Assembly (NCBI RefSeq): GCF_000004075.3
Contig: NC_026658.2
Span: 2,418,001 to 2,482,000, forward strand
Source of the DNA: Cucumis sativus
Taxonomy: Eukaryota; Streptophyta; Magnoliopsida; Cucurbitales; Cucurbitaceae
Direction: 5' to 3'
DNA length: 64,000 nucleotides
Position numbers and translations under genes: made by a program. The notes under the pieces are model-generated. The model made no database searches, was not told where the DNA came from, and saw only the letters and a list, made by a program, of their open reading frames with translations. This document shows positions 480 to 51,700 of this stretch, piece by piece. The number at the start of each line of letters is the position of its first letter. Within the stretch, counting starts at the first letter, position 1.

Positions 480-2450
480 TATCGTTTTCATTAGAGCTTG
501 CATTCTTGACTGAAGCCTCTTGGTTCCAAGAGATGGTGTTTCATTCAAGTCAACCTTCAGCAAGTAGCCAGATGGACCCCTTGGCTGGTACAAGGCCAGT
601 ATATGCTATTGCGGAACCTGCATTATCTTCAATCTCCATCGCCACCTTCACCTCGGCAGGGAAAAAAAGGCGAGCTAAGGCCACTGAAACGAAGGAAATA
701 AATTTTGAGTTCTTGATGTGTCATAAAACTACACAAACAGTTGCATTTTATAAGAAATTGTTAGGATCATAAAACCAAAAGAAAATTACAATGCTAAGAA
801 GATAAAATGATGCCATATGTTTCCCATATAAGTAGGCAAAGGAATTAAAACAGGCTAAGTTTGAAATATGAACTTGGCCTAATAAATATTAAACTTGATC
901 AACTGAAATCAATTTGTAGGACTTCCTAAAGTAATATATTGGTCCAGAACCAACCATAGTATCATAATTCACTTTCATGACAGAAAAACCAAAATTTCGA
1001 TGTAGAGCCCAATAATACACGTAGTTCAACTTGAATCATCAAATTTATGGGTAAACTAAACTTATGGCATGTTTGAGAGTGATTATTAAATTAGTACAGT
1101 TACGTTTACTTTTGTTTTTTTTTTGTCTTTAAATTCCACTCTCATACAATAAAATTTGATTTTAAAATTTAAATTATTTAACGCATGCTTCTCACTGATT
1201 TTGAAGTATATGAGAGTTGTGATTTTAGCCTTTTAAAAATTACTCCTAAAATGTATTTCTAAAATGAATCCTAATAACTTAAAATGTTTTGTTAACTTTA
1301 CAAATCACACAAATTGAAAACTAAGTTCATGGATTACAAATTTTTCACCAACAGCAATCAAATACAACAGAATCAATTTTTAACGTTACACAAGGCCATA
1401 ATCAATATCACGATATTACTAGCAAATTAAATAAAAAAAATATAAATGGTGTAAAAAAAAAAAAAAACTTCTAAAAACCAACCTTAACTACTGATTGTAT
1501 TGAAGCTATTTGTTATATATATGTTCACAAAAATTATCTTCATGTTAACACATGGTCTCCAAATCCATGCCAGAACAGACACTTCCTCATATTCCTTTCT
1601 CCAGGAAGTTCAGCATATAATCTTTCCACTCTTTTCCAAAAGCCCATAACCTTGTGACATCTTAGGAAAAGATAAACAAGAAAAACAACGAACTACATGT
1701 TTCAGAGGCCATATGCATTCTTGACGACCTAGACTCTAGAAGCTTAAACACATTGTAGAATTTTCCTTCCTAGAATAGTAATGGCAAAGCAAGACTCGTA
1801 TTAGCTATCTTATGAGGGAAAAATAGGTAAAGATAAATAAATAGGAAGAGAATATCACCTGTATTTTCTAGATAGTCTAGCATTGGAAATCTGAGTTTCC
1901 ATTTCCATGCCACTAGAAAAAGAATTTCTACGCATCTCTCTCTCCAGCACATCAATGCATAGATTCCTGTTCTTTTTGAGTCGTCTCATTATAATCCCTA
2001 GGCCTAGTCAACCTTCGACAGATTGTAACAGCAGCTTGTCCATCAGCTGTAGGTTCTAATGCAGAGGCTCCCTTGTCCAGAAGAGCTACAATGATTTTAG
2101 GATCCTTACACCTTGCTGCAACATGGAGAACAGTTTGTCCTCTAAGGTTGAGATCTGCTAACCCTAGGTTAAGAACCTCCTTAATGATCTTAGGGTCACA
2201 ATAGGCAGTGGCATAATGAAGAGCATAAACATCACCTGTCGGACTATTTCTTCATCAAAATCCAATGCTTTGTGGAGCCTCCTGCATTTTCTACTCACGG
2301 TGCAGATCCACTTCTTCCACAATATCTTGCTCAGTCTCTTGCTGAGATTTCATAGGAGTGATTTAATTTCAGTTGCAATCTCATCAGGAAGCTCTCTCTC
2401 TAGAGACACAGCATCAAGGTCCGACCTTGCGACTCTTTGAATCATTGTAA
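480..2450 (-). pseudogene. NPR3/NPR4-like salicylate receptor pseudogene
   Basis: Seen: the minus strand holds ankyrin and C-terminal segments of the NPR family in several frames. The first block (about 2450 to 1859) reads RVARSDLDAVSLERELPDE, then after frame changes KSQQETEQDIVEEVDLHRE, RRLHKALDFD, DVYALHYATAYCDPK, LHVAARCKDPKIIVALLDKG, ICRRLTRPRDYNE and LCIDVLEREMRRN. It ends in DYLENT at a GT donor after 1859. The second block starts at 683 after TTTCAG; joining the two gives ENT-VALARLFFPAE, then after another frameshift VDLNETP and KRLQSRMQALMKT. The intron sites are therefore preserved although the frame is broken: there are stops, at least three frameshifts, and a deletion between RRLHKALDFDEE and DVYALHYATAYC. 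The BTB half and the last exon are missing. Known: NPR3/4 are salicylic-acid receptors and co-repressors in immunity. This copy should not make a functional protein. NPR3/4 fits better than NPR1 because of the LTRPRDY and CIDVLEREMRRN segments. Confidence 0.8.
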
Positions 2451-2784: not shown

Positions 2785-3366
2785 CTTGCCAACAAGTCTA
2801 AAACCTCAAACTGAAATTCGACTAACAAAACAGCACAATCCTCCCGTTTCAGCACTCTTTTGGAGCTAATAGGTAGTAACGAACAAAATTAACCCCATAT
2901 AAAAAGCTGAAGGCACAACAGAAACTCAGTGAAATCAGTGAAATCTAAACACCAAACATGTATTTAATATAAATTACAATCCGTCATTCTAAAACAAAAT
3001 TGAGTGGTAAAATGAAATGAACTCACTAAAACTTGGGAACTTGGAAAACGATGATCTCGAATGGATCAACCGTGAAAGAGTCGATTAAGTCATATTTTTA
3101 GAACAAGCATTAATTACAACTTGGGAAACGATGTTCCCACTAGGGTTATTGGCAAAGGAGTAGTGTTCCCCTTCCCACTCAATCTGGCTGGGCTCCAAAT
3201 AGAATGGTTCGAAAGCAGCCAAAGTTGAAAGGCAATGTTCTTATGTATAAAGGGACGTGCATTGACTTGACAATATTCTGGCCTCTAAAACTTTGATTTA
3301 CAGTTTTGAGTCAAGTCAATTATTGAAGGAAGAAGCTAAGAAAGTTACAACCCTTATATTTCTTCT

Positions 3367-3375
3367 TATATATAA
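3367..3375 (+). promoter_or_regulatory. TATA-like sequence before secreted-peptide gene 1
   Basis: TATATATAAG lies 37 bases before the ATG at 3412. It is conserved in copy 2. An alternative TATA-like box, TATAAAG at about 3246, corresponds to a better TATATAAAAGG at 7095-7105 in copy 2 and would give a leader of more than 100 bases. The sequence alone does not decide between them. Confidence 0.35.
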
Positions 3376-3411
3376 GCCACTGAAATCAAGCTTGGTGCTC
3401 CACACAGCGCT

Positions 3412-4055
3412 ATGGCTTCTAGTAATGCTCTATGCAAACTAATAATGCTCATCTTAGTTACCATCCTCTTTGCCTCCAATAATTTTGCCACAAGGAACTT
3501 GCTTTCTATGCCTCATCTCGCTCGTAAGTTACTCTCTTGTATCACATTGAATCTTAATGTTTAAATCTGATGTTTTTTCAGTCAGATTGAAATTATTTTT
3601 AGAGTGTACTTAAAAGTCATTTTAAAATATACTACAAGAAATTTGGAAATACATACTATGTATATAGAATCTAAATCAATTCATATATATTGAAAATGAG
3701 AACTAAACACTTAAAAGGGTGATAACTACTTTAATTTTTAATTTTCTGTTTTTGAAATAATTTTTCAAACTTTTCTTAATTTTCTAACTGTGCGAAAAAT
3801 ATTTGAATACTTAATTAAATTTCACAATATGGAAAAAAGTACTTGCTACTTAAGATTTTATACAAATTATAATAAGAAAAAAAATAGACTTAATAAAAAT
3901 TCAAAAGATGAAATGGTTATCAAACAAGATCAATATAATTGAAAAAGGTAACGTAAAGAAATTGTGGTTGATTTTGATCAGATGTAAATCATGATGAGAT
4001 GACCAATTCTCCACCAACACCACCAAAAGATGGACCATGGGGTGGAAACGTTTGA
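3412..4055 (+). CDS. Small secreted peptide precursor 1 (two exons)
   Basis: Exons 3412-3523 and 3982-4055 join with phase 1 (donor C|GTAAGT, acceptor GATCAG) to encode 61 aa. Residues 1 to about 27 (MASSNALCKLIMLILVTILF plus ASNNFA) look like a signal peptide with hydrophobic core LIMLILVTILFA. A basic-hydrophobic linker TRNLLSMPHL follows, then exon 2 gives HVNHDEMTNSPPTPPKDGPW and ends GGNV. The protein is Cys-poor (one Cys, in the signal peptide), so it is not a cysteine-rich defensin type. The Pro-rich, charged C terminus resembles processed signalling-peptide precursors, but I cannot match it to CLE, CEP, PIP, IDA, RGF or PSY motifs. A near-identical duplicate lies at 7262 and a diverged relative at 11097. 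The start is chosen because the signal peptide begins there. Role in secretion is inferred; receptor and function are unknown. Confidence 0.7.
3719..3931. mobile_element. Intronic MITE-like element, peptide gene 1
   Basis: The intron holds an AT-rich stretch bounded by inverted ends: GGTGATAACTAC on the left and, inverted, ATGGTTATCAAAC on the right. Inner arms are rich in TTTTTGAA on one side and TTCAAAAG on the other. The same element sits at the same place in gene 2 (7576-7864), and a separate copy lies at 10646-10883. This suggests insertion before the tandem duplication. Confidence 0.5.
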
Positions 4056-6760
4056 GGATAACACTGCCTTTCTTTCTTTTCTTTTGTTTTAACTAGACGT
4101 TTCCATAACTTGTTATTTCCATACATCTAAAATAAGAAATGAACTTGAGTGTAGTTGGGATGAACAATATTATCTTCTTTCGAAATATGTATTTGTATGG
4201 TCAAAAGGTGGAAAGCATAGTGGTTCGATGCAAGTTAGGTTGGTTGTACTTGATCGTGGCTTGTTGAATGAAAATTTAAACTTTCAATCTTGTGGATAAA
4301 TATGAATATACTTTTAATTGTTGTTAGTTCATGACGTGGTTATTGTTCAAATTTTTTTATAAAAGGTAGTTTGTGTTTCCATATTATTGTTTTGAGAATT
4401 GATGTTTCAATATATAATATTTTCATCGCATATGAATGTACTCAAGTTTGAAATTTTATAGATAATATATTTTCAAGAATCTATTTAATAATTTACCATA
4501 TCATAATTATATATTGATTGATTCCATATTTGAAAAATCGAGGGCACAATTTTTTAGACAATAAAGAAGTTGTTCATCTTAATGTCAATTGATTTTGAGA
4601 TAAAAACCCAGGTTAACTAATAACCCTTACATTTTCTTTTAAATTGGTTTAAAAGATAGTACTTGTGACCCTTTAAACCTAAAATAATTTTTCTTAAATC
4701 AACACAACCTTTATCGACCAACTAAATAAGAGTTTAAACAAATATTTTAAGATGTTATCGTGGTCTTAAAATATTTTACTATTGAAGTATTTTAAGATTT
4801 TTGTATGTTCTTGTCTTTACCTGAAAAATATTATTAAAAAATGATGAGTAACTCAGCAAATAATTTAGGTTACGAAATTAAATACATACAAATGATTTGT
4901 CATATAACTAGTGGCACGACCTTCATGCTATAGCTTATATTTTACGTTACGACCTTCGTATAGAAGTATTGATACTTAAAGCAATAGAACTAGCACAATA
5001 ATTAGAGAAAAGCTTCGATCTACTAGTCCAAAACACCAAGGTAGCTTGTATGTCGTCCAAAATCGCACCAGAAATTTTTTCCAACCCCTTGAAAATTCTG
5101 TTATTTCTTTCAAGTCATATGGTCCAAATTGCAGCAGAATTTTTCTAAACAATGTATTATTATTATATACACTCGACGTAAAATTTCACTATAAGAAAAA
5201 CAAAATACCTCTATGAACTACCTGTTCTGATCATCTTAAGTGATCACCAATTCAACCAAAAACTTACGTTGGTGGTTGAAAACCAATTTAATTATATATT
5301 ACTAATAATTGATATATAAAAAAAGATATAAGAAACATACCATAGAGCACTTGAATCTCCTTGAAGAAAGTGAAATATATGCGTCTCGATCTAATTGTCG
5401 ACATATTTGTTTCTTTAATACAAACTTCATTTTCCTATGTTATTTGTAATTTTTTCTTTCAACTAGTTAATTTCGAGATAAAAATGGAAATTTATTTAAT
5501 ACAAATAGATCACAAATCTCAAAAGTTTGTGACTAAACTTATACAAACCTTTCGTATATGAAAAAGATCAATTGGTAAAATATAAATTTGATGACATGAG
5601 AGAGAGATTTGTATTTGGAAAAAAGAGTCATAATTTTCAAAGAACTTATGACCAATTCTCTTTTGGGTTCAAATATGAATATTCAAATCCACGTCGCCAT
5701 TATCTTTCACTAAAACCCTAATTAACTATTTATTATTCAATTTTAGTTTTTCTTTATTTACTTTTTTTCAGAAACCCCTACCTATTTTTATTTACTTGGT
5801 TTAGATAAAAATAATAATGAAACTCATCCTGTTAAAAAAAAAAATCAATCAAAAGATAAAGAAAACTTCTAATATTTTTCCTTATTAATTCGTTTCTAAT
5901 TTTTAATATCGTTTACTTCGTAATGACTTTGAGCAAAGTAGTGAAAGATTTATTCATGAAAGTTCTCACATAAGTATATAAATATGATATGTTTTCGAGT
6001 CTCTACGACAATATGTATTTTTTTTTATAATGAAATCTCTCGTAACCATTGTTTTGTTTTACATTCTATGAATATTGTGCATATATAAAACATATTATGA
6101 TATGATATATTTTACACTTTTTCTTTTACTTTATGCAAAATTACTTTATTAACAACAAGATTAGATTTTAAATTAAAATAAATAAAGAATCCAAATAAAC
6201 AATGTGTACACCATATTTAATATTATTAATTTCTACATCCATTTTTTCCACAAGTCGGTCTATAGTTAGACTGATTGAGACAGAACTTGGAGTCCATTAT
6301 TTTGATTTTAGGAAAATAATAATAAATAAAAATGTAAAACAAATGTGTGGTTATTGGTTTTTTCATTTATAATTTGGTCCAAAGAAAAATATATTTGTTC
6401 AATTCTACGTCACTCAACAGAACTTCCAAATTTTCTATTCTATATTCCAAATGCCACATTAATTCAAATGGGTTCTTTTTCAAATCTTCTATTCTGTTTT
6501 CCACATGCCACAATAATTTTCAATTTTTCTAATCTGTTTTCAAACTCCAAAACTCTAACTTGATTGATAGTAGGATATGATGTTTTAGAATATAGGAAAT
6601 GAACCAATTCAACACCGTTTATTCAACTAATTGAAAATAAAAAATTTCTACCATTCATAAATACTTTTCATAGTTGTACTATTTAAAACAATTTTCTTAC
6701 TTAAATAAAACGCAACATGCATTTTAAAGCTTTATTTCTAGTTCATTGTGTTGAAAAGCA
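4056..6760. other. Intergenic part of duplication copy 1
   Basis: AT-rich sequence without a convincing gene on either strand. The segments 4870-5095 and 5620-6560 are shared with copy 2. About 520 bases at 5098-5620 have no partner there. Short frames such as that at 6345-6563 exist in both copies only because the DNA is duplicated. Confidence 0.6.
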
Positions 6761-7094
6761 CAATAGTAACGAACAAAATTAACTCCATATAAAGAACTAA
6801 AGGCACAACAGAAACTCAGTGAAATCTAAACATCGAACATGTATTTAATGTAATTTACAATCCGCCATTCTAAAACAATATTGAGTGGTAAAATGAAATG
6901 AACTCACTAAAACTTGGAAAACGATGATCAAGAATGGATCAACCGCGACTCTTTAAGTCATATTTTTATATAACAAGGATTGGTTACAACTCGGGAAATG
7001 ATGTTCCCACTAGGGTTATTGGAAAAGGAGTAGGGTTCCCAGTCTAAAGAGAATGGTTTGAAAGCAGCCAAAGTTGAAAAGCAATGTCCTTGTG

Positions 7095-7105
7095 TATATA
7101 AAAGG
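7095..7105 (+). promoter_or_regulatory. TATA-like box of secreted-peptide gene 2
   Basis: TATATAAAAGG is a good plant TATA box, about 157 bases before the ATG at 7262. A second TATA-like run (TATATATAAG, near 7220) lies closer to the ATG, as in copy 1. Confidence 0.4.
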
Positions 7106-7261
7106 ACATGTGCATTGACTTGACAATATTCTGGCCTCTGAAACCTTGATTTACAATTTTTGAGTCAAATCAATTATCGAAGGAGGAAGCTAAGAAAGTT
7201 ACAAACCTTATTTCTTCTTATATATAAGCCGTTGAAATCAAGCTTGGTGCTCTACACAGCT

Positions 7262-7997
7262 ATGGCTTCCAATAATGTTCTATGCAAACTAATAATGCTC
7301 ATCTTAGTTACCATCATCTTTGCCTCCAATAATGTTGCCACAAGAAACTTGCTCTCTATGCCTCATCTCGCTAGTAAGTTACTCTCTTGTATCACATTTA
7401 ATGTTGATGTGATATCTTTTGAGCGGGATTGAGATTATATTTTAAGAGTACTTAAAAGTCATTCTAAATATATAGTACAAGAAATTTTGAAAAAGTGCAT
7501 TTTATGTATATAGAATCTAGTATCATTCTAAATCTATATGCATTTTATGTATATAGAATTCAAGAAATTTAAAAAGGTGATAACTATTTTAATTTTCTGT
7601 TTTTGAAATAATTTTTTAAACTTTTCTTAATAATTTTCTAATCTTAATTAAATTTCATAAGAAAAAAACTATCAGTATATAAATTAATTTTCAAATTGTT
7701 ATACGGTTTTTGAAAGTTTGTTTTAATTTGTTTTTAGAATTTGGGTTAAGATGTAAAATTGTACTCTTTTTACTCGAGGTTTTATACAAATTATAATAAA
7801 AAAATGAAAGAAAATAGACTTAACTTCTTAGAAACAAAATTAAAAAACGAAATGGTTATCAAACAAGATCAAAATAATTGTAAAACGCAGCGTAAAGAAA
7901 TTGTTGTTGATTTTGTACAGATGTGAAGCGTGATGAGATTAACAATCCTCCACAAACAGCAGATGATGAACCATGGGATGGAAACATTCGAGTATAA
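7262..7997 (+). CDS. Small secreted peptide precursor 2 (two exons)
   Basis: Exons 7262-7373 and 7921-7997 (donor A|GTAAGT, acceptor TGTACAG) join in phase 1 for 62 aa. The signal peptide (MASNNVLCKLIMLILVTIIF, then ASNNVA) and the linker TRNLLSMPHLA are almost unchanged from gene 1. The exon-2 part has diverged: NVKRDEINNPPQTADDEPWD then GNIRV. P-W-[D/G]-G-N is kept, and the charged and Pro-rich spacer changes. The stop codon has moved so that the tail is two residues longer after GN than in gene 1. The contrast (conserved signal peptide, variable mature part) is typical of duplicated peptide-hormone or effector-like families. An open extension upstream has no ATG (it would need TTG), so MASNN is taken as the start. 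Confidence 0.7.
7576..7864. mobile_element. Intronic MITE-like element, peptide gene 2
   Basis: Same element as at 3719-3931: left end GGTGATAACTATTTT, right end ATGGTTATCAAAC inverted. It is longer than the copy in gene 1, with extra internal sequence near 7680-7790 that contains the inner-arm motif TTTGTTTTAATTTG. Confidence 0.5.
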
Positions 7998-10350
7998 CAC
8001 CGACTTTCTTTCTTTTCTTTTGTTTTAACTAGAATTTCTATGACTTGTTATTTCCATACAATTAAAATAAGAAATTAACTTGGGTGTAGTTGGGATGCAC
8101 TCGTGTGCATCCCAAAATATCTTTTTTCAAAATTTGTATTTGTATAAGCATAGCGGTCATGTGCAAGTTAGGTTGGTGTTGTACTTAATCGTGACTCGTC
8201 GAATGAAAATTTAAACTTTCGATCTTATGAATATACTTTTAATTGTTGTTAGTTCATGACGTGGTTATTGTTCAAAAGTTTAGCGTGACTCAAAAACTAC
8301 GATTACTAATTTCTTGATAGAAGAGACTACTTTTAAAATAAAAGAAAAAAAATCGAGATGAAAGGTAATTTGTGTTTCATATTATTGTTTTCAAAATTGA
8401 TGTTTTGAAGTATAATATTTCGATCGCCCATGAATGCACTCAAGTTTGAAATTTTATAGATAATGTATTTTTAATAATTTATTTAATAATTTATCATATC
8501 TTAATTACTTCAATTATAAATATTAATATATTAATTGATCTCATGCTTGAAAAATGGAGATAACAATGTTTTAAATAATAAAAAGTTGTTTGTTTTAATG
8601 TCAATTGATTTCAAGATAAAAACTTGTGTTAGCTAATAACTTTTATATTTTCTTTTAAATTGGTTTAGATGATTAATTAATTTAGGAGATTAATCCTCAA
8701 TAAATGTGATTGATTGACGAACGTCCTAGATCAACAAACACTTTGTCAAGACCAATTAAATAAAAGTTGATACAAATATTTTAAGATCTTATGATCATGA
8801 TCTTAAAATATTTCACTATCGAGAAGTATTTCTTGTCTCTAATCTGAAAAATGTTATTAAAAAATAGTGAGTAACTCAGCAAATACTTTAGGTTACGTAA
8901 TTACATACAAATGAAACGTCACATAACTAGTGGGACGACCTTTATGTTATAGCTTATAATTTACGTTACGACCTTCATATAGAAGTATTGATACTTAAAG
9001 CAATAGAACTAACATAATAATCAGAGAAAAGCTTCGATCAAATAGTCCAAAACACTGAGGTAGCTTGTATGTGTCCAAAATTGCAGCAGAAATTTTTTCC
9101 AACCCCTTGAAAAAAAGAGTCATAATTTTCAAAGAACTTATGACCAATTAATTCTCTTTTGGGTTCAAATATGAATACATGCTTAAAGGAAGTTGGTGAA
9201 AACTGAAAATTCAAATCCAGGTCGCCATTATCTTTCACTAAAACCCTAATTAACTATTTATTATTCAATTTTAGTTTTTCTTTATTTTATTTTTTTTAGA
9301 AACCCCTACCTATTTTATTTACTTGGTTTAGAAAAGAAATAATTAAACTCATCCCATTAAAAAAAATCAATAAAAGATAAGAAAACTTTAATATTTTTCC
9401 CTTATTAATTTGTTTCTAGTCTTCAATTTTGTTTTCTGAATATTTTTCTTTTTCAAGGTTTTTCATAAAAGGTAATTGGGTTACTTATACGTGGTATTTT
9501 ACTTAGCAAAGTATTGAAAGACTTTTTTTACGAAAGTTATCTCGTAAATATAAACATGATGTGTTTTCGAGTCTCTATACGATAATATGTACTTGTTTTT
9601 TTTTTTTTCTTGTAATGAAATCTCTATAAGTATTGTTATGAACATTGTGCATATAGAACATATTATGATATGATATGCATGAGTAATGTAAGTTGATATT
9701 TTACACTTTTTTTTCAACTTTATGCAAAACTACTTCATTAATAACACGATTAGATTTTAAAGTAAAACAAATAAAGAATCCAAATAAACAATGTGTACAC
9801 CATATTTAATATAATTAATTTCTACATCCATTTTTTCCACAAGTCAGTCTATTGTTAGACTGAGAGAGACAGAACTTGGAGTTCATCATTTTGATTTTAG
9901 GAAAATAATAATAAATAAAAATGTAAAACAAATGTGTGGTTATTGGTTTTTTCATTTATAATTTGGTCCAAAGAAAAATATATTTGTTCAATTCTACATC
10001 ACTCAACAGAACTTCCAAATTTTCTATTCTGTATTCCAAATGCCACATTAATTCAAATGGGTTCTTTTTCAAATCTTTTAATATTCTATTTTCCACATGC
10101 CACAATAATTTTCAATTTTTCTAATCTATATATTTTCCAAATCCAACCACTCTACTTCATGAATAGATGTTTTCAAATATAGGAAAAATGAGAGCCAACT
10201 TATGATAGTTTATCATTAATTAAAGGTAAAACTTATAAATATTTAAAAAATATTTTCAATAATTTTACTGTTAAAAATAATTTTCTTACACATTATTTAT
10301 TTTTAAATGAAAGGCAATAGCTTTATTTCTTCTCCATTGTATTGAAAATA
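7998..10350. other. Intergenic part of duplication copy 2
   Basis: AT-rich sequence matching the 3' flank of peptide gene 1. I see no supported gene. A 66-codon minus-strand frame at 9038-9238 spans the indel junction and has no recognisable motif. Confidence 0.6.
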
Positions 10351-10645
10351 TTTATATCTAAGCTTCTTAGTTAAAATTTTCAAATAAAAATAAACTTTCT
10401 AAACAATTTTTTTTTTAAGTTTTCAAAACTTGCATAAATTTTTTAAAATATTAATCAATAGAAAGTATATGGCAAAATCACCTTAGGCATGAGATAAGTA
10501 TTTATAAACCTAATTTAAATATCAAAAACCAAAAGCTCATTTTTGTTCTTGTAGGTTAGCTCAGAATTTAAATATGAAAAATCACCAAATAAGAAATTAA
10601 AAAATGAGCACAATTTCCAAAAATTAAAAACTAAAAATGAACACT

Positions 10646-10883
10646 CCATTTGGTAACCAATTTTTATTTTTGTTTTTTGCTTTTATTTTTTAAAAACTAA
10701 GCCTATAGACAATATTATTTTCACTTCCAAAGTTTCTTTTTTAATTATTGTCTACCAGTTATTTAAAAAATTAAATCCAAAATTTGAAAGAAAAAAAAAA
10801 TTGGTTAAGAATTCAACTATTACACTCTCCATTTTCAAAAACCAAAAAACTAAAAACTAAATAATTTTTGTTATCAAGAGAAG
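10646..10883. mobile_element. MITE-like element with TTGGTAACC-type inverted ends
   Basis: The left arm starts CATTTGGTAACCAATTTTTA and continues T/G-rich. The right arm, inverted, reads CTTGATAACAAAAATTATTT and continues similarly. It carries no coding sequence. The end motif matches the elements in the introns of peptide genes 1 and 2, so this is a third copy, in the spacer before gene 3. Confidence 0.5.
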
Positions 10884-11004
10884 ACCAAAATATATAGTAA
10901 ATGGGACTTTACAAATATGAACACACATAACATTCAAGGGATCTTTCAATCAAAAAATTCCTCGAAATTGCCAAAGTCTTCAGTTTTGGATGAGAAAAAA
11001 TGAG

Positions 11005-11011
11005 TATAAAT
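11005..11011 (+). promoter_or_regulatory. TATA box of secreted-peptide gene 3
   Basis: TATAAAT lies 92 bases before the ATG at 11097, at a position that would give a leader of about 60 bases. Confidence 0.45.
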
Positions 11012-11096
11012 ACATTAGACAAAGTTTGGAAGAGAAATATAAGTATTATATTGCAAATTAAATAGAATATAATCTTAGTTTAATTAGAAAGAAAAA

Positions 11097-11404
11097 ATGG
11101 TGCAGAAGAAGATTGCATTTTGTTGGGAAATAGTTATGTTGATTATTTTTATGCTTCTATTGGCTTCTTCAAGTGCCTCAAGAGATCTAACAAATCCCAA
11201 ACTTTGTAAGATATCATATTACTCTTCTAACATATTTATCACTTTATTTCTTCATTCTTATTTCTTTTTCCTCAAAGTTTGACAGTGTTAAATGATGATA
11301 TTTAAACTCCTTTTGTATAATTTTTTTTTGCAGACAACAAAGTTAGGAGGTTGTCATTTGATGATCCTCACGATGGTAACTACATACACAAAGGAGGATC
11401 ATGA
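11097..11404 (+). CDS. Small secreted peptide precursor 3 (two exons, diverged)
   Basis: Exons 11097-11205 and 11334-11404 (donor CTTT|GTAAGA, acceptor TTTGCAG) join in phase 1 to give 59 aa. Residues 1-28 (MVQKKIAFCWEIVMLIIFML then LLASSSAS) form a strong signal peptide. RDLTNPKLYNKVRRLS follows, then FDDPHDGNYIHKGGS to the end. The gene shares with genes 1 and 2 its size, strand, single phase-1 intron in the same place, an Arg-[Asn/Asp]-Leu just after the signal peptide, and an acidic stretch leading into P-[H/W]-D-G-N. The dibasic KVRR before the tail could be a processing site (inference). The sequence is otherwise very different, so common origin is likely but not proven. No known peptide-hormone motif is recognised. 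Confidence 0.65.
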
Positions 11405-12659: not shown

Positions 12660-13840
12660 TGTTCTTTTTTCTATGTCCCCCAAAGCATATCAGTTATTGA
12701 ACTCTGAAATGATTTTGTGCCCTGTTCATTCAGAAATGCAATGAAATTGGCCTAAATGGGCTATGAAATTAAACTTCAATCAAAGAAACCCAATTATAAA
12801 ATGATAACAAGAAAGCATATCGAGAACAGTGACAAAATAAACAGAGCAACAACTAGCAACATCTTCCTACCATGCATCATACACCAATAATAAATAGTTG
12901 TACAATGTATAGAACAGATCATGTTCAAGTTATGTCACTGCACCTTTATATCAATTGTACGAAGAATGTCATCCAAGTACAATACAACATCTACTATTTA
13001 CTTCAATTGGTCAGCAGTATTTACAGTTAAACTAAATTCTCAAAGACATAAAGATCCCTTACCAGCAGTTATTTGCAAAGTTGAACATGTCATCATCTAA
13101 TCCCCAGCAGTTCCGGATCAAAATCTCCCTCGCAGCCAACATGTCATAAATAAAGCCCTTACACTTACTTTATCTCGCAATTGAGAATTTTGCAAATGCA
13201 GCCGCTCAAGAGCAGGGCAGGAGCTCAAATACTCATCCGGACCAGGATTTGCATCAATCCTCTGACACGACATGATGTTCAAAGTCTTCAGATTCTCGCA
13301 ATATGGAAGACCAGCCAGCCAGCCATCATCCATCCTATGATCACGAAGTGTCAATTCCTCCAACATTTGACAACACTGCCCAATGACTATAATCCCACCA
13401 AAACTCCCTTCACACCCACTAAGCTCAAGCTTCACCAATCTTCTACAGCCTCGAGCTACAATAGTCATCCCAATATCTGTCACCAAAGAGTTAAAGAACC
13501 CATCAACACTCCCAATTAACTTCAGTATTTGAAGATTCTCAAACGCAGCAATTCCTTGGAGAATGCAGTCACTGCACTTATGCAGTTCAAGTTCTTGCAA
13601 AAGCTCACATTCCTTAGCCACATTCAATAACCCCAACTCACTACCACCAATAACAAGCCCCAGTTTGCGCAAGTTTGGACAACCAGTGGCTAAAAGCTTC
13701 AACCCTCTATCAATCAACACATTTTCCAATACAACATTCTCACCAACATTCGAACAGAGCAAAAATCAAGGATCAATATGCATCGAAAGAAGAAACCCAA
13801 CACCCAGATACCAAATCCACTGGATTAAGATTAGGAAACC
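12660..13840 (-). pseudogene. Truncated F-box/LRR pseudogene (duplicate of the 23.4-24.4 kb gene)
   Basis: The block matches 22925-24170, including about 450 bases of intron. Coding homology runs from 13840 down to about 13065. The longest open part is 13762-13118 (214 codons, LRRs only, for example [20 protein letters not shown]). It is broken in several ways. About 35 bases present in the intact gene are missing near 13790 (between CATCGAAAG and AAGAAACCC on the plus strand). One base is lost near 13136, so TCGAAREIL becomes TCWLRGRF and then stop. The F-box and first LRRs are cut off at 13841. No exon 2 partner is present. Expression as a functional SCF adaptor is therefore unlikely. Confidence 0.85.
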
Positions 13841-15467: not shown

Positions 15468-17394
15468 GGCCTCCATGATGTTATTAATAGTATGATACAT
15501 TAATTAGTCCGTCACATTATTTTATTAAAATAAAATGACATCAACTTATTTTCCTTCTAAAGTCAAAATAATGTTATTATAATTTCTATGGTTGATGATT
15601 TAATCTCTCACTTATTATGCTATTATGTGCCAAATATGTAATAATACCTTCCTACAAATTTTAAAGACTCACAATATCTAAATAATTTGCTAGATATAGT
15701 AATTAATTTGCATCTCAAATTTTAATATGCTAGCTACCTGGCTTCTATATATATATACTAAACTTAAATGGTTGACTTTTTATTATATATATATGTATGC
15801 TTTCTTCAAATGATATCAATATAGTAGATTGATTATAGATTTTAATCCTTAATACTCCAATTTTAATTTCAAAAGTGGAAGGTATCAAACTTTTTTAAAA
15901 AAATATAGCAAAATTAACTAAAATATTTATAAATTATAGCGAAAGTTCATAATTACTGGTAGACTCTAATAGATTTCTATTTGTCAATAATATTAAATAA
16001 ACACTAATAAACAGTGTCTATCATAGATAGAATCGATATTTTTTTTATAATTTATAAATATTTTCAACAGTTTTGCTATTACTTACTTTCTTGTTGATTG
16101 TAAAATGATTTTATAAACTTTTTTAAGTCTGTCGAGCCAAAACAAGAGTTAACCCTAGTTTTCTTTTTACAATATTTTTTTTAAGTGTAATATATACTTA
16201 ATAAACTATTTACTAGTTGGGGGTGGTAATAAGAGGTTTATATATCTTCAAACTTTCCTAATTCCTTTTCCATATACTATAAAATACATATTAATTAATT
16301 AATTGTTTGAAAATTGTTTGAGAAGTGGATTAAAGAAATGTATTAGAGCATACCAACAACTAATTAAGTTTCCTTGATAACTATTTAGTTTTTATTTTCT
16401 ATTTTTTATTTTAAAATTTTACATTTAATTACTTCTTTTTAACAGTTTCTATATCACCATCTTCATCTTTTCTAACTAAACAATTGAGATTATTTTTGGC
16501 AAACCTAAATAACATTAATAGAAGTGAGAGAGAGAGAGAGAGAGAGAGAGAATTGAACCTGATTAACAGCTGGAGGAATGGTAGCAAATTGCAAAAGAGA
16601 GTCAAGTTTTTTGGTGGAGAAATTGCTTACACCAATGCATCTACACAAACCCAACTCTAAGCATTTTTCCATTCCTTTCCAAGTGCTTTCAAGATCCAAA
16701 GTTTCCTCAAAATCACTTTCCTTGGGAACTGGATAACATGCCCATGGCTTCAATTTGAATGGCCAATGCACTAAATACATATCCAAGTATTCCATTCCCA
16801 TGTTCCTATATAAACACATATAATACACACACAAAATATTACCAATAATCCATGGCTAAAACCAAACACAAAACCCAAAAATTTAAATCATATATTTTGA
16901 TACAACCAAAAAATTTATACGGATAAATAAGTAAATTTTATCCTATATATATAACATCTCTATTGATTTAAAACATTCTTTTAAAAAATTAGGGTTTCAC
17001 CTTCATACATACATATATGAATGAATATTAATAATTGTGTTATCGTGTCGTGGTCAAATAAGTCTTTCTCCGTTGAATTTTCATGAATAGGGTTCAACCC
17101 CAAAGAAAAAAAAGGAAGTTTGAAATTTCATACTTACATGTTAATTATTGTGGTAAGGCTATATATATATAACAATACCTTAGTGTTGTTTTCAATGCTG
17201 AAACAGGATCATGATGGTCACTTCCCCATACTTTTGAGGTAAGAAAAATGTCTTCTCTCCCCAAAGTTCTATAATTCAAAAACTCATCATTAAGAGCTTT
17301 GCCAACAGCCCCTTCTGATCCATATATAGTTGCTGTATCAAAATGCCTATAACCCATCTGCAAAAATCAAAATCAAAATAAAAACCAAAACATA

Positions 17395-21802: not shown

Positions 21803-24429
21803 CTAGAAAAACCTCCCACCTTTCTTTCCCATACAAGTCCCGATCAGACTCGACGAGAGAAGTGATTTTGTATCTGGCCTCCATTTCAAATTCTTAAGAA
21901 CCGAGAAGACTTCCGAAAGAGCAGGAGAGATGCAGCTATCTTTTATATTCTTACACGATACTACTTCGAGGCTTTGAAGCTCCTTCCACTGAAGAACTAC
22001 AGACTCCAATCCTTCAGTCGTTAACAACGAACATCCTTCAAGCAAAAGTAACTTCACCCTCCTGTGCAATGAGAAAGAAAACACAAATCAGGTATCTGCT
22101 TTGATCAAAATGTTTGATTTCAATTGAAGTACTAGAGTCATCATTCATCAGGATATATTTACTTCAAGAAATTTTTAGCACATTCTTGGCACGTTCAGCT
22201 TTAAGCGCTGTAAATGTGGTCTGGTGGGACAAAAGTCACTTTTCCAGTTTAATCAAAGAGAAGCCACTTGAGTGGCAAACCAAAACTAGGTCCACTAGGT
22301 TATAATGTCCTCCTTGTGAGCATCGGTCACTAAGCCTTTTTGTAACCGTGATCTAGCTTTAACTATTTTGTTGGGTTTATTTATTAAGAAACAGAAGGAA
22401 AGAATACAAGGGCATACACAAAAAAGTAAAAACAACCGCTTTTTGTTGAGTTGGAATTTGTTTTTTAGTTTTCTAGAGTTTCCCTTTTATTTTGTTGGAA
22501 TGGTTCTTTTATGTCTGTACATTCTTTCATTTCTATCCATGAAAGCCCGATTTCTTACCCAAAAATAATAACAATAATAATAATCATCGATGTTGACCAT
22601 TTTCAGAAAACAAATATTTCAATTGCGCAAGATATAAATTCTACACTTGTGCTGTAATACTTCACCATGTTCATTTGGTGTTGAAATTGTCAGAAATTAT
22701 GTCTAGCCAAAGTCCAAACAAACAAAAAATAATATCATTCTCTTCTTATGGACCCAAGAGTTCAAAACTCGACAGAAAATACACCATGATAAATAAATGA
22801 CAAAAACAAGTAGCCATATATTGGAATGAGATAGTCACATAACACCACCCATTCAACAACAAAAATTATTGCTCATCCTAATTCATGAAATCAGATTTGA
22901 TCAGTTTTAGAACCATCTATCTGTAAGAGGTTCCTATGTCCCCTCAAAGCATATCAATTATTGGCCTCTCAAATGATTTTGTGCCCTGTTCGTTTAGAAA
23001 TGCACTGAAAATGGCCTAGATGGGCTATAAAATTAAACTTCAATGAAAGAAACACCCAAAAAAATGATAACAAGAAAGCATATCGAGAACAGTGACAAAA
23101 TAAACAGAGCAACAACTAGCAACCTCTTTCCTAGAATGCAGCATACACCAATAATAAATAGTTGTACAACGTATAGAACAGATCCTGTTCAAGTAAAGCA
23201 ACTACACTGATAACAAAATTGATGGCTCGAGTTCTTATTAGCCCTTCATATCAATTGTACGATGAATGTCATCCCACAATACAACATCTACTATTTACTT
23301 CAATTGGTCAGCAGTATTTACAGTTAAACTAAATGCTCAAAGACATAAAGATCCCTTACCAGCAGTTATTTGCAAAGCTGAACATGTCATCATCCAATCC
23401 CCAGCAGTCCCGGATCAAAATCTCCCTTGCAGCCCCACATGTCATAAATAAAGCCCTTACACTTACTTTATCACGCAATTGAGAATTTTGTAAATGCAGC
23501 CGCTCAAGAGCAGGACAGGAGCTCAAATACTCATCCGGACCAGGATTTGCATCAATTCTCTGACACGACATGATCTTCAAAGTCTTCAGATTCTCGCAAT
23601 ATGGAAGACCAGCCAGCCAGCCATCATCCATCCTATGATCACAAAGTGTCAATTCCTCCAACATTTGACAACACTGCCCAATGGCTTTAATCCCATCAAA
23701 ACTCCCTTCACACCCACTAAGCTCAAGCTTCACCAATCTTCTACAGCCTCGAGCTACAATAGTCAGCCCAATATCTGTCACCAAAGAGTTAAAGAACCCA
23801 TCAACACTCCCAACTAACTTCAGTATTTGAAGATTCTCAAACGCAGCAATTCCTTGGAGAATGCAGTCGCTGCATTTATGCAGTTCAAGTTCTTGCAAAA
23901 GCTCACATTCCTTAGCCACATTCAACAACCCCAATTCACTACCACCAACAAGCCCCAATTTGCGCAAGTTTGGACAACCAGTGGCTAAAACCTTCAACCC
24001 TCTATCAATCAACACACTTTCCAATACAACATTCTCTCCAACATTCGAACAGAGTAAAAACCAAGGATCAATATGCATCGAAAGAACACCATGACTCAAC
24101 AAAATACTCGAATTTCTAGAAGAAACCCAACACCCAGATACCAAATCTACTTGATTAAGATTAGGAAACCTCAAAACCAACCTACCCGAGAGAAGAAATT
24201 CAAAATCCGTAACCCTAAGAGACCGTACAAGACGACCCTGCAAGTAAAGCCAACGCTTGCAAACAAGAAAGTTGGAGTTTCGTTGAGAATCAGGCAATTT
24301 GGAGAAAACACGAAGAAGAAGCTCGTCCGAAAGCAACAAAGTGAAGTCAATCAAATTGGAAACTGGGGATTTGGGTTTAGAGTCAGGGGAAGAAATGGGA
24401 GAATCACTGGACAAAGAATGGAGTCGCAT
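21803..24429 (-). CDS. F-box/LRR protein (At5g51370/At5g51380-like), copy B
   Basis: Exons 24429-23360 and 22061-21803 (donor TG|GTAA, acceptor CACAG) join in phase 2 to give 442 aa. Known: F-box/LRR proteins bind SKP1 through the F-box and recruit substrates for ubiquitination by SCF complexes. Seen: an F-box at about residues 29-75 ([20 protein letters not shown] then [10 protein letters not shown]), followed by LRRs of the plant CC-like type ([74 protein letters not shown]). Exon 2 gives [20 protein letters not shown] and ends MGKKGGRFF. It lacks the roughly 75-residue N-terminal extension of copy C: an in-frame homologous stretch upstream of Met1 (QETGDFFEHVIVS) has no ATG. It also stops about 20 residues early. 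It may be a working but shortened protein. The 12.66-13.84 kb pseudogene derives from this gene. Confidence 0.85.
22366..22580 (+). mobile_element. 3' tail of a LINE-type retroelement in the intron of F-box copy B
   Basis: The plus strand ends with [20 protein letters not shown] followed by AAAATAATAACAATAATAAT. The same kind of terminal sequence (hydrophobic run, then FF-S/L-MKA) is found at the end of the LINE remnant at 43150-44050, and an A-rich tail follows. It is antisense to the host gene. Confidence 0.45.
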
Positions 24430-25626
24430 TGAGACAATGACATGCTCAAAGAAGTCCCCTGTTTCTTGAACCAGAACCCTCCAAAGCTCACAAACAACAA
24501 AGCAACTTCTTCTTCTTCAAGCTAGGGTTTGGCTATGGCGAAGGATTGAAGAAAGGAGAAGAGGATAAAGAAGCAAGAACTTGGTTTCTCAGCCTCAAAA
24601 TGACGGTGGAACAGAACAAGCAGTAATTTTCATAATAAAGAAGACATTTTTTTTGCTTATTGGAATTGGAATTGGATTGTGACATTTTTGAAAATAGAAA
24701 TTTTAGGGATTATATTATTAACCAAAAAGATAAAGATCGATTTTTTATGCCTTTCTTTAGGTGGAAGGGACAACAATTAGGGTTAGAAGTTTAGAACTAG
24801 AAGTGGGTTTAGGTATCTTTTTTCTTTTATAAAAAAAAAAAAACCTAAACTTTATTTGGTTAAAAATGAATTAGTTAAAATCTATTGGTATGATCATGAA
24901 TGAATGTATCATATTTGTTATCAAATCTACTCGAATGAGTTGTTTTTGTTATTTATCTTTCTTTTTTAAAAATTTTAGTTCTAAACTAGAAGATATGAAT
25001 GAACATTTATAGTTTGATAATTTGAGAAATAGTTTTTTTAGTTCATGAATAAGTTGGAAGTTTAATATAAAATTTTAAATTAGTATATGATATCAATTTT
25101 ATAATTTATCGAAATCACAAGAATAAAGGATCGGTGATAATATTCTGTTATGAAATAAATATAAATGAAAGAAATGCATTTTTTTTTAGATTGCTAAGTT
25201 TGATAATGTATTACTTTATGTGTGTGTGTGAGTATATATAAGAGATGAATCGTTGGAAAGTTTGGCAAAAGCACAAAAAGAGATATTAGTGACCAAAATA
25301 TAATATTTAACATTCAGAAACTGTAGTAATCTACAGCCGTGCCAGTAATTTCTATTAAGCTTAACAAATGAAGGAAATGATGATATTTCCTTTACAATGT
25401 GTCCACTTAAACTAAGAATAGCAAATTACTAAACCAAACTAAATTGGTAAATTCTAATCTACACTATTTCCATGGAGTAGATAACCTGGCAGCTTCATCT
25501 TTCCCTCGGTCCAAAACACAAAGATGAAAGCCCAGTTATGTGTTGTCAGCATCTCAACATTTAATTAACAATCTTGACAATGACGAAGACGATTACAGTA
25601 CGACAATATCTTCGGTTCGAGGGTTT

Positions 25627-28086
25627 TCATGTCTGTCGTGTGCTTGTGTGATCGTGAACACCAGGTAAAACTTTCATGTCCCATGTCTTTTTGAAAAATC
25701 TACCACCCTTCTTTCCCATGTGAGTGCCAGTGAGGCTTGAAGAGAGCAAAGATTTGGTATCTGGTCTCCATTTCAAATCCTTGAATATCGAAAACAGGGA
25801 AGAGAGTGCAGGAGAAATGCTGCTCTCTTTTATGTTCTTACACGATTCGACTCGAAGACTTTGAAGCTCATTCCATTGAAGAATTACGGACTCCAAACCC
25901 TGTGTTGTTAGCAGTGAACATCCTTCGAGAGAGAGGAATTTCACTCTCCTGTAAGAAAAGTAACTACAAATTAAACATGGATTGAAACATGATGAACAGT
26001 TGTTAATTTCTTCAAGTTCAAGGGGAATTTAAATATTGTCAGCAAAAGCTGGATTTCCAATCTGCAAAGAACAATATTGATTCTCTATGTTTATTAGTTA
26101 TTCAAACTTTTAACTCAAATACCAAACTTTGGCCCCCTTGATCTATTCCAATGGATCCCTAAGAACAAGGACAAACCTAAAACCTAACCAAGGAAAAGTT
26201 ATTCAAAAGAAGTATTGGAGGTGCATTCAATAATTTGTTTTTTTAGTACAATAGAGGGATTCCAAACCTTTTAGTCGCTAACATATATGCATGCTAGTTG
26301 TGCTCGTTTTGGCAATCTAATAATTTGTATGTTCCCAATAACAATATTATATAAATTCAAGAAAATCTTCTCTCTACATCTGATGATGAAAAACTGTAAG
26401 CGACATAGTAACGACTTTACCAATTAATTTCTTCTCACAAAGACAGTAAGAGGTTCAATTCAGGAAACTGGACCAGAAAAAAGACGACATGATTCTACTA
26501 CTAAAAGGATTAAATAGTTAGCCATGGAGAATTTAATTGTCACATCCCAATCACAGACAACATGTTTAGGCAAACATAAATTTCTTGTGTCTCAACATTT
26601 CTTTCCTTTTTCTTTATTGCGAACAAAGATGCATTACAGCTTCCCATTCGCTTGTAACCCATTTGAACAGTGAACTCCATTAAAAGCCACAGAATCTTTG
26701 GAATAGTTAAGTAAGTCATGATAGAATAAATCGTTTCTTATCCCCAAAGGAAAAAAGGTAAGATAGAATAAAAGGAGAAATTATTTACCAGAAGTGACTT
26801 GCAAAGCTAAATATGCCATCAACCAATCCCCAGCAGTCACTGAAGAAGATCTCCCTCGCAGCTCCACAGGTAACAAACAATGCTTTAGCACTCCTTCTCT
26901 CTCGTAGTTGACAATTGTGCAAATGCAACCGCTCAAGAGCAGGACAGGGACTCAAATATTCGTCGGGTCCGGGATTAGGATCAATCTTCCTACATGACAT
27001 GATTCTCAAAGTCTTCAAATTCTCACAATACGAAAGCGCAGCCAACCATCCATCATCCATCCTATGATCACAGATTGTCAATTCCTCTAACATTTGACAG
27101 CATTGCCCAATAGCCTTAATCCCATCAAAACTTCCCTCACAACCATTAAGCTCAAGCTTCACCAATCTTTTACAACCTTGAGCTAAAATAGTCAAACCAA
27201 TATCAGTAACCACGGAGCTATAAAGACCATCAACATTTCCAATTAACTTCAGTATTTGCAAATTCTCACAAGCTGCAATTCCTCTCAACAGATTATCATT
27301 ACACTTGTGCAATTCAAGTTCTTGCAAAGTTTCACATTCCTCAGCCACACTCAACAATCCCATCTCACTCCCACCAATAAATGCTAATTTGCGCAAATTT
27401 GGACACCCACTAGCCAATGTCTTCAACCCTTTATCAATCACCATATCGTCAAGTATATTTTCCTCACCAACACCAGGAACAGGTAAAAACCAAGAATCAA
27501 CATGCATCGAAAGAATCCTATTACTCAACAATATGCCAGAATTTCTAGAAGACATCAACGACCCAGATACCAAATCCACACGGTTAAGATTAGGAAACCT
27601 CAAAATCAACCTACCCGATAAGAGAAAATTCAAATCCATAACTCTGAGCGACCGTACAAGTCGACCCTGTAGATTCAGCCACCGCTTGCAAACGAGAAAG
27701 TTGGAGTTTCGCTGAGAATCCGGTAACTTCGAGAGGATCCTGAGAAGAAGCTCATCGGAAAGAAGCAAAGTACGGTCGATTTTGCAGAAATTAGCAAGAA
27801 GGGGTTTGGTTTTGGAGTTAGGGGTAGGGATATGAGAGTCCTTAGAAAAGGATTGAAGTTTCATTGCAAGAATAACATTTTCAAGCGAGTTGGTATTCTT
27901 CAGCCACACATCAGACCAACGCGGTGTTCTCTTCTTCTTCACCGGTGAGTTAGGGTTAGTTTGAGGACTTGGAACAGAGGAAATGGAGCTTCGTCGTCTT
28001 TCACCTTCAAGTAACACCGACTGTTGTCGGTGATTTGCAAACCCCATGATGGTATTACTCTCTTCTTTTGTCTCTGTCTTCTTCAA
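25627..28086 (-). CDS. F-box/LRR protein (At5g51370/At5g51380-like), copy C
   Basis: Exons 28086-26789 and 25948-25627 (donor TG|GTAAAT, acceptor TTACAG) join in phase 2 to give 539 aa. A basic, Ser/Pro-rich N-terminal extension ([35 protein letters not shown]) precedes the F-box at about residues 110-155 ([20 protein letters not shown]). Then come about eight LRRs and a C-terminal [20 protein letters not shown] region ending HDHTSTRQT. Likely an SCF substrate receptor; KKKR could be a nuclear localisation signal (inference). MGFANHRQ at residue 14 is an alternative start. It is the most complete of the three copies and probably represents the ancestral structure, with copy B a tandem duplicate 2.4 kb downstream on the same strand. 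Confidence 0.9.
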
Positions 28087-28089
28087 GAT

Positions 28090-48724: not shown

Positions 48725-51700
48725 TTAACATTCATCTACCGTCTTATGACCTAAAAGGACGTCACCATCGCCATGACGACGGTTGCAAATTATATTATCA
48801 CTACTATCACAGTTACCATTTCTTTCATGGATGATGTTCCCGAATAATTTTCTCTTTGGTTTAGCCTCTTGTAACATCAAAACAACGTCGCGCATTGACG
48901 GTCGGTCAGCAGGGTTACGACTGGTACAAAGCAATGAAATACGAAGCATTTGTATCATTTCCTCTCTAACAGACACACAAGACGCGCCCGCATTCTTATC
49001 TAATATTTGACTGACTCCATCCTTAATTTTAATCTTGGATCTCACCCAGTCCACAATACTATTTCCATCGCCAAATTCTGAGTCCACCGATTTCTTGCCA
49101 CTCAAAATTTCCATCAACACAACTCCGTAACTATAAATATCACTCTTTTCATCCACTTGAAGTGTATATGCATACTCTGCACAAAAACACACATCATCAA
49201 AACCCATTTAAAACACAAACTTACTAAACATCACATCAGTTCGTAAACTTAAACAGTTAGTTACAACTTAAAACGAAAACATAGTTGTTACGTAGAATCC
49301 TCATTTGTTTGATCTTGGTGAAAATGAGAAAATACACAACTGGCCATGAAATTTAGAGGTGGGGTATAGAGAACGAAGAGATCGAAAAACAAAGGATTTA
49401 ATTTTGAAAAAAAAAAAAGAAAAGAAAGGAACAAAAGAGGGAAAGCTAAGAAAAGAAGCTTGAGGCACAATATATAGTGTTGGATTGGGTTAAGGAAAAA
49501 AAGAATTGCATGTGCCAAAAGAAGGATTGTTTAGTTGTGTCCCAAATTCATTGGCTTTACAATTTTGGGGTATGAAACTATTTCTCACACACAATAACAA
49601 GTTTGGTGTGGCCTCACTCATATTGCTTTTTTAAATAGGTAATATTCTCTTGGATCTCCATTCAAAAATTAAAGTTTTAAAGTGTGACACTCCTTGGTTT
49701 ATGTGCAACATCATTTGGAAAAAAAAAAAAGTAGACATAAAAATCAATTTAGGTTTTTCTTCTCTTCAGAAATTACATCAATATTACCATCAGACTACAG
49801 TGATAGTGATAATTACACACTCAAAATCGAGTCTTAAACATATAATTATAGTAGAAATTAGACTTTCAAATAATAAAAAATTTAATCTCGAACTTATAAA
49901 TTGTAACACTTAAATTTCTTTTATTTATGTACATGAATTTTAGGACATAATTTTGTAACTAGAGTTCTATTTTTCATGATTTTTCCTGAATTTTGTAAAA
50001 AAATCAACGAGTAGATATATATATAAAAATAGAAAAAATAAACTATTTACCCAATAACAAAATTCGAAGGGTAAATATTTTTTTTTCTTTCCTTTTTAAA
50101 AAACCATAATTTAAGGTATGTTTAAAAAAGGGTATTAGAAAAAAGAAGAAGAAGAAAAAAAAAGGATTATATTTTAAATTTAGTATTGAAAATTTTAATA
50201 TTGGTCGGTACAACTTTTGAATTTGTGGTTACCAAAGTAAATACGAAAAGTAGAAGATTTATACGAATTTATAGCGACCGTTTTTCAATATAAATAAATA
50301 CATAAAATATCGTTTTTAAAATATGATTTGACACTGAAAAATCCAATATTAGTAACTCCATTATTTGTTTTTAACTTCTACAAATAATAAAGTAAAAGAT
50401 TTACACGAATTTATTGTTTTAGTTTACATTTTCTTTTATAAATTATTTTCAAATAAAACACATTTTATAATAATTGAAATTAGAAAATTATCAAGAAAAA
50501 AATAGAGAGAGAGAAATAGTAGAAACCTGGTGCAATGTAACCGTAGGATCCGGCGATGACAGACATAGATTCATCGGTCTGGATCAATTTAGCGACACCA
50601 AAATCCGCGACTCTGGCTTCCATCTCACCGTCCAATAAAATGTTACTGGGCTTCAAATCGCGGTGAACGATGACGGGATCACAGTCATGGTGAAGATAAC
50701 AAATTCCTTGTGCAACACCCAAAGCAATCTTATACCGAGTCATCCAATCAGCCCCTAAATTTTCACCCTTGTTTTTACCGTGCAGTAAATCATCCAAATT
50801 ACCATTAGGCATATACTCGTAGAGTAACATAGTACACTCCCTGTTACTGCAGCACCCTAACAATCTCACTATGTTCCTGTGCCGCACGTTCCCAAGTACA
50901 TCCACTTCAGCCAAAACCCCTCTCCGCCGTCGGATATTCTCTTTGTACTTCCCCCATAATTTCTTCACCGCTATGATCTCGCCACCTGGCATCTCCGCCT
51001 TATATACGGTCCCTGTGGACCCCATTCCCAGTATTTTATCCGTCATTGTCAAACATTCCAATACTTCCTCCGCCGTGAAGTTCAACCGTTGAAAGGCGGT
51101 TAACTTCCACGGTCCGATTTCCTCTTCCCCACCGCCGAACCTACGGTTGTAATTCGCCTGAAAACACCGCGTTCCTGCTACTAATATGAACAGTCCGATT
51201 CCGAATGCTCCCGCCATTATCCAAACTATTGCTCCTGCCGTCCTACGTGGTTGTTGCGGCCGGACCTCTATTGCGCCGGCGGTTAATGTGTCGGTGTCGC
51301 ATGGTTTTGAAACAATCTCTCCGCAGAGTCCATCGTTGCCGATGAATGACGATGGGTGTAATGCAGGGAAGATCGTTCCGGTTGATGGAATAGGGCCGGT
51401 GAGCATGTTGTATGATACGTTGAAGCTTTCGATTGTGCTACAGTTTTGGAAATTTGAAGGAATTGTGCCTGTGAGGGAGTTATGAGATAGATCAATGGCG
51501 GTGATCCCTGGTAGCGTTGATATCTCCCATGGAATAATGCCGGTTAAGGAATTCCGGCCTAAATTCAGAGTGATTAATTTCTCGCAGTGGCCGATTGTCC
51601 ATGGGATACTGCTGTTTAAGTTATTGTCCTGGAGTTCGATCTTGTAGATGGACCTACAGCTGATGAAATCCGGGATTTTACCGATGATTTTTGAAGAACT

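Follow-up and report, generated by a model that had tools for sequence, protein, structure and literature searches.

What are the three small genes that lie between positions 3412 and 11404 of the window, the whole analysed stretch of 64,000 nt from Cucumis sativus (C4:2418001-2482000, NC_026658.2; window position p corresponds to C4 2418000 + p)? A sequence-only reading had described them as three genes for small secreted, phytocytokine-like peptides with a P-[W/H]-[D/G]-G-N tail, and had assigned them to an unnamed family. These genes, here called g10, g11, and g12, are the last, diverged members of a larger array, comprising three of its 13 genes, and do not form a family of three. With a rough probability of 0.77, we read them as diverged members of an array encoding secreted prepropeptides, in which a C-terminal octapeptide would be the mature signal, similar in kind to the soybean peptides GmPep914 and GmPep890.

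The rechecked gene models agree with the earlier description of the structures and tails. All three genes are on the plus strand and have two exons separated by a GT-AG intron in phase 1. The proteins are 61 (g10), 62 (g11), and 59 (g12) amino acids long, and the splice junctions, modelled at the sequence level, are at 3523/3982, 7373/7921, and 11205/11334, respectively.

3412..3523, plus strand: g10 exon 1, 37 codons and 1 nt, with a signal-peptide-like N terminus MASSNALCKLIMLILVTILFASNNFATRNLLSMPHLA (maximum 10-residue hydropathy 3.41)
3982..4055, plus strand: g10 exon 2, terminating in PPKDGPWGGNV and a stop codon
4029..4052, plus strand: predicted g10 octapeptide DGPWGGNV, C-terminal
7262..7373, plus strand: g11 exon 1, identical to g10 at 33 of 37 residues; N terminus signal-peptide-like
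7921..7997, plus strand: g11 exon 2, terminating in ADDEPWDGNIRV and a stop codon
7965..7988, plus strand: predicted g11 octapeptide DEPWDGNI, followed by RV
11097..11205, plus strand: g12 exon 1, with a signal-peptide-like N terminus MVQKKIAFCWEIVMLIIFMLLLASSSASRDLTNPKL
11334..11404, plus strand: g12 exon 2, terminating in RRLSFDDPHDGNYIHKGGS and a stop codon
11360..11383, plus strand: predicted g12 octapeptide DDPHDGNY, followed by IHKGGS
2874..10348, plus strand: tandem-duplicated segment with g10 and g11, four paired blocks of 77-82% identity (2874-3787 / 6764-7641, 82%; 3826-4351 / 7748-8276, 78%; 4359-5095 / 8358-9113, 79%; 5615-6757 / 9107-10348, 77%)

How far does the array extend? The search for C-terminal tails and two-exon structures covered 174 kb, from -100 kb to +74 kb in window coordinates, and included 110 kb of neighbouring sequence. 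The finder required phase-1 splice sites and, for most first exons, a hydrophobic N terminus, and both traits are shared partly by construction in the genes that it recovered. The array spans about -35.7 kb to +11.4 kb in window coordinates. In it we modelled 13 genes of two exons each, every one with a GT-AG intron in phase 1; m0 is on the minus strand and the other 12 are on the plus strand. One last exon (g7) is an orphan. Protein searches of the cucumber genome brought up two more copies immediately upstream of the window. The members outside the window are listed by the first base of exon 1, with the octamer and the tail following it.

-34935, minus strand: m0, ALPRGGNY followed by INKPHAAEKAAVGRAGYQP
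-31519, plus strand: g1, DTPRKGNY followed by GGRGEGPTS
-26231, plus strand: g2, DIPRGGNY, terminal
-23326, plus strand: g3, DIPRGGNY, terminal
-18601, plus strand: g4, DAPFDGNY followed by SYGPTMKPAAAAAS
-16232, plus strand: g4b, DGVWDGNF, terminal
-12915, plus strand: g5, AAPRNGNY, terminal
-10729, plus strand: g6, DDSHDGNY followed by GIQKRMII
-10005 to -9881: g7, orphan exon 2 only, DTPWCGNY, terminal
-5758, plus strand: g8, DKPRGGNY, terminal
-2108, plus strand: g9, DDPWSGNF, terminal

The element common to these members is a C-terminal octapeptide, D-x-P-x-x-G-N-[Y/F/V/I]. Thus, the three genes and their tails had been seen correctly, while their setting had not: they are three of 13 genes, to which an orphan exon 2 is added, and the tail P-[W/H]-[D/G]-G-N is a diverged subset of the longer motif. 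The 14 octamers share one register, with D1 in 12, P3 in 12, and Y8 in 10 of them; G6 and N7 are present in all 14, both being search criteria. In the 174 kb, D.P..GN[YFVI] at most 16 residues from a stop is found ten times, always in the array, while 40 first-order Markov sequences yield a mean of 0.125 and a maximum of 1, and P[RHWF].GNY is found 9 times against 0.1 expected in Markov sequences. All matches to the strict motifs fall inside the array span; the ratios are flattered, because the strict motifs were defined after the genes had been seen. The loose P..GN tail shows no excess over chance in the same region (15 observed, mean 12.85 expected).

The exact D-x-P-R-G-G-N-Y before a stop occurs in three of the 14 octamers (g2, g3, and g8), all outside the window, and partial PR cores are present in m0 (ALPRGGNY with a tail), g1 (DTPRKGNY with a tail), and g5 (AAPRNGNY). 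In the whole genome (226.6 Mb, 88 contigs), the DNA pattern of P-[R/S]-G-G-N-Y has four matches, a number that a reversed control equals; all four encode Arg and fall inside the array, within 31 kb of one another (C4:2382314-2413026). Hence PRGGNY clusters at this one locus, and it is the clustering that is informative. Of the six matches to D-x-P-x-x-G-N-Y-stop (3 and 0 for the reversed control), four belong to the array, the other two being on C2, with many stops directly upstream, and on C7, with an internal stop. For P-[R/S]-x-G-N-Y-stop, four of the six matches are also in the array, and the others are on C1 (internal stop) and C6 (reversed control 1 and 3). Protein queries of the same genome with g10, g12, g3, and m0 yielded nothing significant outside the array: g10 matched g10, g11, and g9; g12 matched g12 and g6; g3 matched g3 and g2; m0 matched itself; weak matches elsewhere had E 1.29 (C2) and E 0.99 (C85). 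As the four queries missed most other array members, diverged copies elsewhere could also be missed.

Does the motif belong to a named family? The soybean elicitor peptides GmPep914 and GmPep890, which are very small defence-signalling peptides, are given in PMC7730307 as DHPRGGNY and DLPRGGNY, respectively; they are described as sitting at the C terminus of the precursor (PMC6547358, PMC4621407), which has 52 amino acids (PMC4621407). The octamers of g2, g3, and g8 agree with them at seven of the eight positions, the only difference being at position 2, which also varies between GmPep914 and GmPep890 themselves. Like the soybean precursors, those of the array are short (58-85 amino acids against 52), and the octamer is at the protein end in 8 of 14 cases (g2, g3, g4b, g5, g7, g8, g9, and g10). 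Since the array neighbours carry the GmPep914/890-type D-x-P-R-G-G-N-Y, the assignment to an unnamed family is not supported; the match to a named family, an outcome that the sequence-only reading had listed as refuting, comes through neighbours outside the window, beyond what that reading could see. There are also differences from the soybean peptides: the N terminus is strongly hydrophobic in 12 of the 13 array genes, 13 genes and an orphan exon form one array, as opposed to the two genes named in reviews, the core is PW, PH, or PF in several members, and in 6 of 14 cases 2-19 residues follow the octamer.

For the soybean precursors, the review PMC6547358 reports no obvious signal sequence, uses the table wording "apoplastic or cytoplasmic", and gives the release route as not known; the receptor is stated to be not yet identified (PMC6547358, PMC8591736). 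We take the missing signal sequence as a reported trait of the family and not as one that defines it. A 2026 review describes GmPep914/890 as lineage-specific to soybean (PMC13157962). Among the matches listed in the open-licence literature, there was no report of GmPep914-like genes in cucurbits. The founding soybean paper of Yamaguchi et al. from 2011 reportedly had homologues in Fabales and Cucurbitales and in no other order. If so, the presence in cucurbits was already known, and what is new is the array, the signal-like N termini, and the diversification.

The N termini point to the secretory pathway. The best 10-residue N-terminal hydropathy is 3.06-3.71 in 12 of the 13 genes, g5 being weak (2.19). 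Values of at least 3.0 occur in 56 of 784 open reading frames that start with ATG (at least 36 amino acids, same region, array members included), a comparison with a bias considered below. A second hydrophobic stretch was not found, as the rest of each array protein has a hydropathy of at most 0.73. All five first exons that came without the filter, from the sequence-only reading or a protein search (g6, g9-g12), have values of at least 3.4. We infer that the array precursors are secreted via a signal peptide encoded by exon 1. The earlier suggestion of small secreted, phytocytokine-like peptides is well supported by the structure of the genes, their hydrophobic N termini, the conserved tail, and the kinship with the GmPep914/890 elicitor type.

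The two exons have diverged at different rates. As noticed from the window sequence, the signal peptides of g10 and g11 are nearly unchanged while the mature part has diverged: the exon-1 peptides differ at 4 of 37 residues, and the nonsynonymous divergence (dN) is 0.05 in exon 1 against 0.31 in exon 2. A comparison of exon 1 with exon 2 in array paralogues gave a faster exon 2 in g10/g11 (nonsynonymous differences/sites 4/84.8 in exon 1 and 14/54.7 in exon 2, P 0.0005), g9/g11 (1/84.2 and 11/56.3, P 0.0002), and g9/g10 (5/84.3 and 11/57.3, P 0.03); the counts for g6/g12 are 3/84.7 and 7.3/55.8 (P 0.05). The canonical g2 and g3, identical in the octamer, gave 9/130 and 4/69.3 (P 1.0). By these counts, the canonical pair is alike in both exons, while copies of the window type combine a slow exon 1 with a fast exon 2. 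All divergence tests have few sites and high exon-2 synonymous divergence (dS), and their P values are uncorrected for the number of tests.

Measured against the introns, exon 1 of g9/g11 shows far less nonsynonymous change (P 6e-6), but no significant deficit is seen in g10/g11 (0.08), g9/g10 (0.13), and g6/g12 (1.0). In exon 2, nonsynonymous change is below intron divergence in g2/g3 (Fisher P 0.014) and exceeds it only in g10/g11 (P 0.008), with no significant excess in g9/g10 (0.14), g9/g11 (0.86), and g6/g12 (0.06). These results do not demonstrate positive selection on exon 2, a possibility that we weighed: the excess over introns is confined to g10/g11, and exon-2 dS is also high.

How could such peptides act? 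We infer secretion, processing, and function from the sequence as follows. Exon 1 would supply a signal peptide, by which the precursor would enter the secretory pathway, and a protease may then cut before the conserved Asp; Lys or Arg directly precedes the octamer in 3 of 14 cases (with a slash before the octamer, PVPKK/DKPRGGNY in g8, RPKR/DTPWCGNY in g7, and TPPK/DGPWGGNV in g10). Residues beyond the octamer would be either trimmed or kept as an extension. By analogy with soybean, the free octapeptide would bind a cell-surface receptor and trigger defence signalling. The canonical copies retain PRGGNY, and the window copies, with Trp or His instead of Arg, diverge faster in exon 2. A tentative extension, to which we give less than an even chance, is that, in this plant lineage, an alarm signal of one octapeptide gave rise to a cluster of different ligands, which leave the cell by the classical secretory route: canonical PRGGNY would be constrained, and copies with a W/H core or an extended tail would have diversified, possibly by positive selection, either acquiring a new ligand specificity or becoming antagonists at the same receptor. 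If true, classical secretory delivery would revise the view of GmPep914-type peptides as products of unsecreted precursors, and the signal-peptide-like N termini make this question directly testable. The natural core variants (R, W, H, and F) provide a ready series with which to look for the receptor and for the protease that processes the precursors.

Several points weigh against the GmPep914/890-type reading. The window genes g10-g12 lack PRGGNY and retain only D-x-P-x-x-G-N, being paralogues within the array and not canonical members; what links them to the soybean type is array position, the shared intron, the resemblance of exon 1, and this D-x-P-x-x-G-N frame, and in g11 and g12 the octamer is not terminal. 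For P-[R/S]-G-G-N-Y, the reversed pattern had 1 forward and 3 reverse matches, which makes the number of matches ordinary. A bias affects the comparison of hydropathies, since a hydropathy filter had been used to pick several of the first exons, and the array genes are known here from their sequence. The comparison with the soybean precursors covers the octamer, its end position, and the length as described in reviews. Finally, in one study (PMC7225342), GmPep914/890 gave Arabidopsis no protection against a fungus, and low doses of one raised susceptibility; activity outside soybean is therefore not a given.

The window copies may, with a probability well short of one half, be relaxed or decaying duplicates that have lost the Arg core and signalling, the upstream canonical copies remaining functional. 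Exon-2 dN of 0.22-0.31 and dS of 0.18-0.76 among g9-g11 are not clearly different from neutral, and the array holds dead relatives, namely a frame-broken g8 copy (-8247..-7735), a g1 exon-2 relic (-30077..-29843), and the orphan exon 2 at -10005. However, g10-g12 have retained an open frame, intact splice sites, and the D-x-P-x-x-G-N frame, exon 1 has no indels relative to close paralogues, and the exon-1 constraint in g9/g11 described above argues against decay, though it is not significant in the other pairs. We consider it unlikely that the array is an unrelated new family in which convergence on the same receptor produced the likeness of the PRGGNY ends to GmPep914/890. The reported lack of a signal sequence in soybean would fit such convergence; still, seven of the eight octamer positions match in g2, g3, and g8, and both the location at the protein end and the short precursor agree with kinship, as would the homologues in Fabales and Cucurbitales that the 2011 paper reportedly described.

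Other peptide families fare worse. CAPE peptides start with P-x-G-N-[Y/W] and are released from PR-1 proteins, which contain a CAP domain. The title of PMC10403534 agrees with a PR-1 origin for CAPE9. Although g12 reads DPHDGNYIHKGG, loosely resembling a PxGNYI start, a CAPE-like origin is very improbable: the likeness is a loose P..GNY, the spacing in the array is P-x-x-G-N, and Pfam scans of 11 members revealed no CAP domain. The SCOOP, PIP, CLE, IDA, and CEP families each comprise several genes, whose short prepropeptides carry the signal at the C terminus. None of their motifs was seen in the array members; the sequence-only reading had likewise been unable to place the tail motif in these families. 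A Pfam scan of the three window proteins gave one sub-threshold match (E 0.099), and that of 11 proteins, all but m0 and g4b, gave nine single-member matches, none plausible (best E 0.0079, SLATT_5), with curated cut-offs seen for the first member only. Chance open frames in AT-rich sequence are the least credible explanation. The exons are indeed short and known from sequence, and the loose tail is at the chance level, but the ten strict tails, the two-exon layout repeated 13 times, and the location of all four P-[R/S]-G-G-N-Y matches here speak against it.

Returning to the array itself, exon 1 of g7 was looked for and not found, and g7 may be a remnant or may serve g6 as an alternative last exon. 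Other sequence of ~2.1 kb separates the g2 coding block from a stretch resembling the g3 5' region (88%, 109 bases); this stretch with the intervening sequence, at -28460 to -26243 (C4:2389540-2391757), directly precedes the g2 start codon, and the promoter of g2 may be altered. Loose minus-strand tails at -33760 (DRVVWGNITINK) and 66091 (EIVQRGNYKV) each have one weak exon-1 candidate.

Other features of the window are as follows.

1955-2251, minus strand: ankyrin-repeat fragment, presumably similar to a portion of an NPR-type protein; it may be a pseudogene or a single exon
13121-13765, 23359-24516, and 26788-28089, minus strand: three similar frames of the leucine-rich repeat (LRR) type, probably F-box/LRR; most Pfam scores just below the cut-offs
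16508-16855, minus strand: aldo-keto reductase fragment (Pfam match)
48728-53401, minus strand: TDR/PXY-type LRR receptor kinase (best PDB match TDR ectodomain 5jfi, E 2.8e-242)

There is no evident partner of the array peptides among these genes. The TDR-like kinase, considered as a linked receptor, is a poor candidate, because TDR already has a known ligand, TDIF. Upstream of the array genes, W-box-like TTGAC cores number 4 per 400 bp in g10, 3 each in g1, g3, g9, and g11, and 0 in g2, g6, and g12 (regional mean 0.79), counts that we do not use as evidence. The promoter repeats TTGACTTGAC and GTCAAGTCAA, which we take to be W-box-like cores, are located at 3230-3330 (g10) and, less complete, at 7080-7180 (g11).

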